Assembly: GCA_035699745.1 (NCBI GenBank)
Contig: DASSPH010000107.1
Location: 62,001-126,000 of the forward strand
DNA length: 64,000 nt
Source of the DNA: Vicinamibacterales bacterium
GTDB lineage: Bacteria; Acidobacteriota; Vicinamibacteria; Vicinamibacterales; 2-12-FULL-66-21
Reading direction: 5' to 3'
Positions 7,816 to 10,771 of the stretch are shown piece by piece (positions within the stretch are counted from its first letter, which is position 1; the number at the start of each line of letters is the position of its first letter). A model generated the notes under the pieces. That model ran no database searches. It saw only the letters and a program-made list of their open reading frames with translations, and was not told the origin of the DNA. Position numbers and translations under genes: made by a program.

Positions 7816-8325
7816 ATGATTCGTCCCATCCTGCGCTACGGGGAGCGGCCGCTGCACACGCCTGCCGCCGAGGTCGTCTCATTCGACGACGACTTCCAGC
7901 GTCTCGTCGATGACATGATCGAGACGATGTACGCGGCGCCGGGCATAGGTCTCGCGGCCACGCAGATCGGGGTGTCGCTGCGGGTATTCGTCATCGATCT
8001 GTCGCTGGGGCGGTCGAGCGGCGAGCTGATCGTCATGGTTAATCCGGCGTTCGTGACGCGCGAGGGCACGCAGCTCGAGGAAGAAGGCTGCCTCAGCGCG
8101 CCCGGGTTCAACGCCACCGTCGTCCGCCCGCAGCGCGTCGTCGTCACCGGCCTGGACCGGTACGGGCAGGAGCAGACGATCGAAGGCAAGGACCTGCTGG
8201 CGCGGGCGTTCCAGCACGAGATCGATCACCTCGACGGCATCGTCTTCATCGACCGGCTGCGCGGCATCAAACGCGATCTGATCGTGCGCAAGATCCAGAA
8301 GCTGAAGAAGTCGGGCAAGTGGTGA
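7816..8325 (+). CDS. def: Peptide deformylase
   Basis: This cytosolic metalloenzyme removes the N-formyl group from nascent proteins. All three family motifs are present in the 169-residue product: G-I-G-L-A-A-T-Q-I-G (motif 1, about 43-52), E-E-G-C-L-S (motif 2, metal Cys, about 93-98) and Q-H-E-I-D-H-L-D-G (motif 3, metal His pair and catalytic Glu, about 133-141). The C-terminus is Lys-rich. The stop overlaps the start of fmt, the conserved partner that formylates initiator Met-tRNA. Confidence 0.97.
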   Translation: MIRPILRYGERPLHTPAAEVVSFDDDFQRLVDDMIETMYAAPGIGLAATQIGVSLRVFVIDLSLGRSSGELIVMVNPAFVTREGTQLEEEGCLSAPGFNATVVRPQRVVVTGLDRYGQEQTIEGKDLLARAFQHEIDHLDGIVFIDRLRGIKRDLIVRKIQKLKKSGKW

Positions 8326-9431
8326 AGCCGCTCCGCATCGTGTTTTTCGGGACGCCGGCGTTCGCGGTGCCCTCGCTCGAGGCGTTGATCGCGTCCCGGC
8401 ATGCGGTGGTCGCCGTGGTGTCGCAGCCGGATCGTCCGAAGGGGCGCGGCCACCAGCTTCAGCCGACGCCGACGAAAGCCGTCGCCGCCGCGCACGGCAT
8501 CCCCGTGCTGCAGCCGGCGAAGATCCGCGAGCCGGCCTTTCTCGATCGCGTCCGCGCCGTGGAGGCGGATCTCGGCGTCGTGGTGGCGTTCGGGCGCATC
8601 CTGCCGGATGCCCTGCTCGCGATCCCGCCGCTCGGCATGATCAACGTGCATGCGTCCGTGCTGCCGCGCTATCGCGGCGCGGCCCCGATTCAGCGCGCGG
8701 TGCTGGCCGGCGATGCGGAGACCGGCGTGACGATCATGCGCGTCGAGCCGGAGCTCGACGCCGGCCCGACGTTCGCGGTCGCAACCGTCCCGATCCCGTC
8801 CGACGCGACCAGCGGCGACATGGAGGGCGTGCTCGCGGTGCTCGGCGCAAGGCTGCTCGTCCCCGTCGTCGACGATCTGGCGATGGGGCGGGCCGTGGAG
8901 ACGCCGCAGGATCACGCGCGCGCGACGCACGCCGCGAAGATCACCAAGGAGGAAGGGACGATCGACTGGACGCAGCCCGCGGCCGTCGTGCACAACCGCG
9001 TACGGGGACTCCAGCCCTGGCCCCTCGCTTCTACCCGCCTCGGCTCGGACCGCATCGTCCTGCGCCGCACCCGTCCGCTGTCTCTGTCCCTGTCCCCGGG
9101 GGTCAGGTCTGCAAACGGGCAGTTCGGGGGTGCCAGGTCTACAAACGGGCAGTTCGGGGGTCAGGCCCCGGAACTGCCCGATTCCAGACCTGGCACCCCC
9201 GAACTGCCCGTTTCCAGACCTGGCACCCCGGAGCGCCCGTTTGCAGACCTGACCCCCGGATCGGCGCCCGGCACCATCGTTCGGGCGGCGGGGGACGAGA
9301 TCGTCGTCGCCTGCGGCGACGGGACGGCGCTGCAGATCCTCGAGCTCCAGCCCGAAGGACGCCGCACCATGACGGCGCGGGAGTTCCTCGCCGGGCGCGC
9401 CGTGTCGGCCGGCGACCGCTTCCACCCGTGA
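8322..9431 (+). CDS. fmt: Methionyl-tRNA formyltransferase with in-frame palindromic insert
   Basis: Fmt transfers a formyl group from 10-formyl-THF to initiator Met-tRNA. The 369-residue product shows I-V-F-F-G-T-P-x-F-A-V-P at the N-terminus, the catalytic N-V-H-A-S-V-L-P-R-Y-R-G-A-A-P-I segment near residues 107-122, and the C-terminal tRNA-binding domain (V-R-G-L-Q-P-W-P near 228). Between two parts of that domain, about 55 residues rich in Gly, Pro and Ser (about 259-313) are encoded by a 164-bp inverted-repeat element. It keeps the frame open, and the conserved L-E-L-Q-P-E-G-R-R-x-M tail follows. Two GTG codons (8319, 8322) are possible starts; 8322 gives the GTGA overlap with def. Confidence 0.95.
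   Translation: MKPLRIVFFGTPAFAVPSLEALIASRHAVVAVVSQPDRPKGRGHQLQPTPTKAVAAAHGIPVLQPAKIREPAFLDRVRAVEADLGVVVAFGRILPDALLAIPPLGMINVHASVLPRYRGAAPIQRAVLAGDAETGVTIMRVEPELDAGPTFAVATVPIPSDATSGDMEGVLAVLGARLLVPVVDDLAMGRAVETPQDHARATHAAKITKEEGTIDWTQPAAVVHNRVRGLQPWPLASTRLGSDRIVLRRTRPLSLSLSPGVRSANGQFGGARSTNGQFGGQAPELPDSRPGTPELPVSRPGTPERPFADLTPGSAPGTIVRAAGDEIVVACGDGTALQILELQPEGRRTMTAREFLAGRAVSAGDRFHP
9096..9259. repeat. Palindromic repeat element inserted in frame within fmt
   Basis: The 164-bp block has perfect 25-bp inverted termini (9096-9120 and 9235-9259). Inside are two forward units of about 28-30 bp built on TCAGGTCT..AAACGGGCAGTTC (about 9098-9125 and 9126-9155). Three reverse-complement units follow (about 9171-9200, 9201-9229, 9230-9257). 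Together they could fold into one long hairpin. No stop codon occurs in the fmt frame. No target duplication or transposase is seen here. It resembles REP/RPE-type palindromic elements that spread without their own protein. Confidence 0.9.
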
Positions 9432-10771
9432 TCGCGCCCGCCCGGATCGCGGCGTACGAAACCGTGCTCGCCGTCGCCGCGGGACGCGCGGACCTGCCCG
9501 CCGCGCTGGCGCACGCACGCGGCAGGCTCGGCGACGAGCGCGATCGTGCGCTCGCCGGAGAGATCGCCACCGGCACGCTCCGGTGGCAGGGGGCCTTCGA
9601 TCACGTCATCGCGCAATTCGCCGGACGCCCCGTCGCCAGGCTCGATCCCGAGATCGTCGCCATTCTGCGGACCGGGATGTTTCAGCTCCTGCACCTGGAT
9701 CGCGTGCCCGCGGCCGCGGTGGTGGACGATGCGGTGAACCTCGCGAGGAAGGCGGGCAAGAAGAGCGCCGCCGGGTTCGTCAACGCGCTGCTCCGGCGCG
9801 TGTCGCGGGAACGGGCCCGCCTGCCGATCCCCGAGGCGCCGCCGATCGACGTGCTGTCGGTGTCGCTCTCCCACCCGCGCTGGCTGTCGGCGCGCTGGCT
9901 GGAGCGGCACGGCTTCGATGCCGCCGCGCGCTGGGCCCGGTTCGACAACAGTCCGGCGCCGCTGACGCTGCGAGTGAACACGCTGAAAACGACCGCGGAG
10001 GCGCTGGTGCGCGATCTGGCTGAGGCGGGCGTCGCCACGGAGCCCGGCCGGTTCGCGCCGAACGCACTGGTCGTCACCGGCGGCAATCCCCTGCTGACGC
10101 CGCTCGCGCACGGCGGCGCGTTCGTCGTGCAGGACGAAGCCTCGCAGCTCGTCGGGGAATACGTGGATGCGGCGGGCGGCGAGACGATTCTCGACGCCTG
10201 CGCCTCGCCCGGGGGGAAGACGACGCAGATGGCGGCGGCGATGGGCGGACGCGGAACGATCGTCGCGGCCGACGTGCGCGGACGCCGGGTCGATCTGCTG
10301 GCGCGAACGGTCGCGCAGTCCGGCGCCCGCAACATCCGCGTGATCCAGGCAGACGCCCGCGCCGTGCCCGCGGGGCCGGCGGCGTTCGATGCGGTGCTGC
10401 TGGACGCGCCGTGCTCGGGGCTCGGCATCATCCGCCGCGATCCGGACGTCCGCTGGCGGCGGACCGAGGGGGATCTGGCGGTCTTCGCCGAGCGGCAGCG
10501 GGAAATGCTCGACTCGCTCGCGGCGGTCGTCCGTCCGGGCGGCCGCATCGTCTACTCCACGTGCTCGAGCGAGCCGGACGAGAACGCGGCGGTGGTCGGC
10601 GGCTTCCTGTCGGCCCATCCGGGATTTCGGCGGGAGGTTCCGCCCCGGTTCGCCGCGAGCCCGGTGCTGGCGGCGCTGCTCGACGGGGAGGGGGCGCTCG
10701 AGACCCTGCCGTTCCGGGACGGGCTGGAGGCGTTCTACGCGGTCCGGATGGTCCGGACCACGGGGTGGTAA
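9428..10771 (+). CDS. rsmB: 16S rRNA (cytosine-967 C5) methyltransferase
   Basis: The 447-residue protein joins an N-terminal NusB-like RNA-binding domain (about 1-140) to a Rossmann methyltransferase. SAM-binding L-D-A-C-A-S-P-G-G-K-T-T is near residues 255-266. The two catalytic cysteines lie in D-A-P-C-S-G-L-G (about 326-333) and Y-S-T-C-S-S-E-P-D-E-N (about 376-386). It methylates C967 of 16S rRNA with SAM. The GTG start overlaps the fmt stop (GTGA), and fmt-rsmB linkage is widely conserved. Confidence 0.96.
   Translation: MIAPARIAAYETVLAVAAGRADLPAALAHARGRLGDERDRALAGEIATGTLRWQGAFDHVIAQFAGRPVARLDPEIVAILRTGMFQLLHLDRVPAAAVVDDAVNLARKAGKKSAAGFVNALLRRVSRERARLPIPEAPPIDVLSVSLSHPRWLSARWLERHGFDAAARWARFDNSPAPLTLRVNTLKTTAEALVRDLAEAGVATEPGRFAPNALVVTGGNPLLTPLAHGGAFVVQDEASQLVGEYVDAAGGETILDACASPGGKTTQMAAAMGGRGTIVAADVRGRRVDLLARTVAQSGARNIRVIQADARAVPAGPAAFDAVLLDAPCSGLGIIRRDPDVRWRRTEGDLAVFAERQREMLDSLAAVVRPGGRIVYSTCSSEPDENAAVVGGFLSAHPGFRREVPPRFAASPVLAALLDGEGALETLPFRDGLEAFYAVRMVRTTGW

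Follow-up and report, generated by a model that had tools for sequence, protein, structure and literature searches.

The region studied here is part of a window of 64,000 nucleotides (the whole stretch of DNA that was analysed) from a Vicinamibacterales bacterium. It includes the gene fmt, flanked by def and rsmB, both named from their translations and each overlapping it by a few bases (Table 1). The fmt frame (370 aa) stays open throughout a palindromic block of REP-like units, which encodes 55 residues (PGVRSANGQFGGARSTNGQFGGQAPELPDSRPGTPELPVSRPGTPERPFADLTPG), 10 of them Pro and 10 Gly. The original prediction of a 164-bp block with perfect 25-bp inverted ends was borne out, as was its claim that the frame is kept open within the C-terminal domain of Fmt with about 55 residues added; the insert is Gly/Pro-rich as proposed, but not notably Ser-rich.

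Table 1. Positions of the genes and repeat features at the fmt locus, numbered along the window
Feature	Position	Strand	Remarks
def	7816..8325		
fmt, methionyl-tRNA formyltransferase, host gene	8319..9431	+	TIGR00460, 301 bits; PF00551 and PF02911
rsmB	9428..10771		
Palindromic mosaic element in fmt, 2 forward and 3 reverse REP-like units	9096..9259	none	164 bp; absent from relatives
Left 25-bp terminus, CCGGGGGTCAGGTCTGCAAACGGGC	9096..9120	+	Perfect inverted copy at 9235-9259
Right 25-bp terminus	9235..9259	-	Perfect inverted copy of 9096-9120
Forward unit 1	9098..9127	+	
Forward unit 2	9128..9157	+	
Reverse unit 1	9166..9195	-	
Reverse unit 2	9196..9225	-	
Reverse unit 3	9225..9254	-	Complement holds a 27-bp unit sequence that recurs in three units of the C6 element

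The number and direction of the units, which are about 29-30 bp long (spacings 30, 30 and 29), agree with the original description, but the 25-bp termini proved to be portions of the outermost units and not separate ends. The large arms of the block (9095-9160 and 9166-9231) show 88% complementarity along 66 nt. As RNA, the block is predicted to fold at -147.8 kcal/mol; shuffled sequences average -77.4 (z = -13.8), and 0 of 200 matched it. With up to three mismatches allowed, the 16-mer GGTCAGGTCTGCAAAC occurs four times in the window (0.3 expected), every time inside the block, and no further occurrence of the unit was found in the rest of the window. An Rfam match to mir-8834 (9126-9237; 40.1 bits, gathering threshold 39) was rejected as a chance hit of a long hairpin just above threshold.

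An ancient Fmt domain, for which the same block would be expected at the same site in relatives, is ruled out: the block was looked for in fmt orthologues from 15 genomes, which belong to its family or order but to other genera, and was missing from all 15. Fourteen of these orthologues match our protein up to about residue 251 and again from about residues 308-316, skipping the intervening piece, and the fifteenth (G012) shows the same gap by alignment. The loop at this position measures 9-11 codons in four relatives read gap-free at the DNA level and at one further locus (L069), while the non-element sequence in the loop of our fmt amounts to 31 nt, indicating a net insertion of about 165 bp, that is, the element itself. 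No target duplication was evident when the loops were compared at the DNA level. In E. coli Fmt (1fmt) the insertion site aligns between residues 239 and 253, in the C-terminal domain; a single-sequence AlphaFold model of Fmt was uninformative (pLDDT 35). These results support the earlier proposal of a repeat inserted in frame at a variable loop of this domain, and since the relatives compared belong to other genera, they date the event only to after the genus split.

A search of the bacterium's own genome (G000; C-numbers are its contigs, with the fmt copy on C107) for further copies, as the original prediction had suggested, revealed a family of about 16 dispersed elements comprising 163 units with the core CAGGTCT. 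They lie on C6, C13 (two), C14, C15/C44, C16 (two), C24, C41, C43, C47, C81, C82, C83, C95 and C107. The tandem pattern CAGGTCTG-N18-24-CAGGTCTG was found 95 times, against 0 in the reversed control. Nearly all elements share one layout, in which a forward array is followed by a unit-free spacer and a reverse array; the exceptions are C14 and C41, where the units alternate more, and C83, with mostly reverse units. The GC-rich unit consensus is G[G/T]G[C/T]CAGGTCTGC(A/G)AACGGGC (units also written GGGGTCAGGTCTGCAAACGGGC), and column counts over the 163 units revealed neither a GTAG nor a CGTC tag. Single units of about 25-30 nt fold, in the forward sense, at only -5 to -11 kcal/mol and thus form no strong hairpin.

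In their variable part, units of the same arm have a likeness of 0.67. Opposite arms of one element score about 0.52-0.53 and resemble each other no better than arms from different elements or permuted arms (0.52; p = 0.15). The higher likeness within arms suggests that local tandem duplication lengthens each arm on its own. The permutation result (0.53 versus 0.52) gives no support to gene conversion as a process that homogenises paired arms. The fmt copy stands apart, with the highest arm likeness of all elements (0.83), and is probably young.

Several copies lie within 20 bp downstream of a stop codon. On C6 (L039:1401-1628) a tilS-like PP-loop gene has an open reading frame that continues into the element, so that its C-terminus may be repeat-encoded. 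One element on C16 directly adjoins the gene of a protein with a SLATT_4 domain, a putative defence effector membrane domain (L044:1850-2548).

Three further elements, on C43, C83 and C95, are each contained in an open frame whose third-position GC is of coding type before and after the element, so that the count of in-frame copies called for by the original prediction comes to four with fmt. The C43 copy (L048:1392-1698) adds about 88 codons to a membrane protein, so named from its sequence as no family was matched; this protein has 95 codons where its G002 homologue (55-57% identical) has 21 bp. A partial paralogue without the element lies directly upstream of the membrane protein gene. The C83 copy is found in an ABC-F ATPase, where it separates the C-terminal domain from the second ATPase domain, its empty site being defined by domain order only, and the C95 copy lies between domains of a PMT/TPR protein. 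Stop-free frames numbered 24 of 90 in the 15 elements tested, and the chance that four of four intragenic copies are in frame is about 1e-4 if frame and length are random (1/6 x 5/6 x 1/6 x 3/6 x (1/3)^4), a post hoc figure, as the intragenic copies were recognised by spanning frames. The neighbours of the remaining copies, where identified, are of different families, and no obvious split gene was seen around this subset.

Two other explanations of the fmt block were considered. It could be a true extension of Fmt maintained by selection, a disordered loop with a function whose repetitive make-up is accidental. The insert is indeed in frame and Gly/Pro-rich, and fmt is a single-copy gene (one full-length match in the genome), which means that the protein must function with it. 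However, the genome carries this DNA unit at 15 further sites, both intergenic and inside unrelated genes, and the block is present in no relative examined, making such an extension very improbable. The element could also act mainly as RNA, its hairpin of about 66 bp in the def-fmt-rsmB message setting the expression of fmt and rsmB through RNase III cutting or ribosome stalling. The great predicted stability of the hairpin and the tight operon of overlapping genes would be compatible with such a role, and so would the copies just after stop codons, which recall transcribed REPs (PMC3733652). Nevertheless, the in-frame copies inside genes seem tolerated rather than placed, and the fmt genes of relatives do without the element; we consider a primary RNA function quite unlikely. 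The encoded segment in Fmt is most likely a tolerated, solvent-exposed passenger.

One element of the family carries a gene. Between 10 forward and 6 reverse units on C44 (the locus L049) lies a Y1/HUH transposase gene of the IS200-like superfamily, whose product matches Y1_Tnp (C44:800-1129; PF01797, 41 bits, over the cut-off) and displays the HYH motif in its translation. The forward side consists of GGGGTCAG units and the reverse side mostly of a GTGCCAG variant. As read from the sequences (L049:1-1440 and L043:1-224), C15 and C44 share an exact overlap of about 105 bp at their starts, within the array, which implies that the two contigs are neighbours and that the forward array is longer than 10 units. 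The transposase-bearing element is thus itself the assembly break between C15 and C44.

Contig ends falling in such arrays raise the question of whether repeat sequence was misjoined into fmt by the assembler. The fmt copy, however, spans merely 164 bp, fmt runs on in frame with the operon order def, fmt, rsmB kept on both sides, and three other copies share the in-frame state, so that an assembly artefact appears exceedingly unlikely.

The genome has two more Y1 genes, on C42 and C69, and neither has such arrays next to it. Among 149 genomes of the order, the tandem pattern is present in number only in G000 (95) and G030 (49), all others having at most five occurrences. The Y1 gene of G030, 45% identical to ours, likewise lies between forward and reverse GGGGTCAGGTCTG units, together with another gene. 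In the order as a whole, 11 of 30 Y1 loci have terminal repeats with GGGGWSAS and at least 10 identical bases (control, 0 of 30), and they include six of the seven loci closest to the query. In other genomes of the order, at L130, L131, L134 and L129, Y1 transposases are flanked by GGGGTCAGATC-type inverted repeats (47 bp at L134), these loci representing diverse related transposase/repeat pairs. A C-terminal HTH_23 domain is weakly matched in our transposase (residues 291-325, E = 0.071) and in that of G030 (7.8e-4), both under the curated score. Against the NCBIfam model REP_Tyr_transpos (REP-associated tyrosine transposase) our protein scores 61 bits, under the curated cut-off of 80.

Judging from these sequence comparisons, the fmt block is very probably a non-autonomous, transposase-associated repeat of REP/BIME-like kind (TIRYT/TIRtron) that was inserted into fmt in this lineage. 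The C44 transposase would bind GGGGTCAGGTCT units and move a pair of inverted units in trans as single-stranded DNA, the binding, cleavage and mobility all being part of the proposed model. IS200-type enzymes work on single-stranded DNA, and movement in this form is consistent with no target duplication being evident. After insertion, the arms would lengthen separately via tandem duplication. Copies would gather chiefly right after stop codons, doing little harm there, and intragenic copies would survive only if their length is a multiple of three, their frame is stop-free and their site is a loop or linker.

The fmt block is a well-preserved case of a known event, the in-frame insertion of REP-like DNA. 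The Rickettsia RPEs were published before the intragenic REPs of 2013. The latter, also in frame, are found in tRNA synthetase, DnaE and uvrA genes (PMC3733652). New here are a TIRYT-type repeat in coding sequence, the architecture of converging arrays and the fmt site; the TIRYT group is little studied in the literature searched. Our observations connect palindromes inserted in frame into coding sequence with an identifiable and possibly active transposase group (TIRYT), in a bacterium whose genome is GC-rich and 6.3 Mb in size, and they display a clear pattern of growth, with separate expansion of the arms through tandem duplication. It thereby becomes possible to test outside Rickettsia, where the problem is best known, how a mobile palindrome can enter an essential protein and leave the cell alive. 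It seems unlikely, though conceivable, that this lineage draws new coding sequence continually from TIRYT-type repeats, with the copies in Fmt, the ABC-F ATPase and the membrane and TPR proteins kept because their segments or the message hairpin are now useful.

The original prediction had compared the block to the palindromic elements (RPEs) of Rickettsia. The outcome is alike, in that an essential gene, here fmt, is read in frame through a palindrome, as are three further genes in this genome. However, our unit is GC-rich and its consensus, with neither GTAG nor CGTC, has no tag in common with RPEs. Moreover, a cognate Y1/HUH transposase of TIRYT kind is identifiable here, while for CGTC-type repeats, to which Rickettsia RPE-4 and RPE-6 reportedly belong, no associated transposase is described (PMC3733652). 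The RPE reading is therefore disfavoured, to the point of being barely credible.

The GTAG REP/BIME/REPIN repeats and their RAYT transposases also resemble our family in their non-autonomous inverted units and clusters, in the related transposase sometimes found inside a cluster and in the copies just after genes (PMC2817692, PMC3116915). In contrast, our units have no GTAG tag and fold weakly when alone, and they form same-direction arrays converging on a spacer instead of alternating. Membership in the classic REP/RAYT class thus fails on the tag, the unit hairpin and the transposase score (61 versus 80 bits). The intragenic GTAG/CGTC REPs, such as that in uvrA of Opitutus terrae, add 20-82 residues in frame and similarly place palindromic repeats in essential or repair genes, but they belong to another repeat family and to other host genes (PMC3733652).

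The closest parallel is the TIRYT/TIRtron group, in which Y1 transposases are paired with terminal inverted repeats that contain GGGGWSAS (Di Nocera et al. 2013, PMC3733652). It has been tentatively equated with subclass 2.1, in which a C-terminal HTH is present, of the HTH_23/28 or Bac_DnaA_C type (PMC6006769). Our family differs in having a tandem array of about 29-bp units per side instead of one TIR, and in its four in-frame copies within genes, intragenic copies of TIR families not being described in the available portions of either account (PMC3733652, PMC6006769). Shared features are the Y1/HUH transposase, although the C-terminal HTH is only weakly matched in our protein, the flanking repeats starting with GGGGTCAG, a start common to terminal repeats of related transposases in the order, and the occurrence of dispersed and grouped repeats in the genome (16 elements, 163 units). 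The resemblance to repeats of soil Acidobacteria noted at the outset fits this picture, as the GGGGWSAS TIR group includes a well-defined acidobacterial set (PMC3733652). On sequence grounds, the element most likely belongs with the TIRYT/TIRtron group of GGGGWSAS repeats, rather than with the classic GTAG REPs or the RPEs of Rickettsia.
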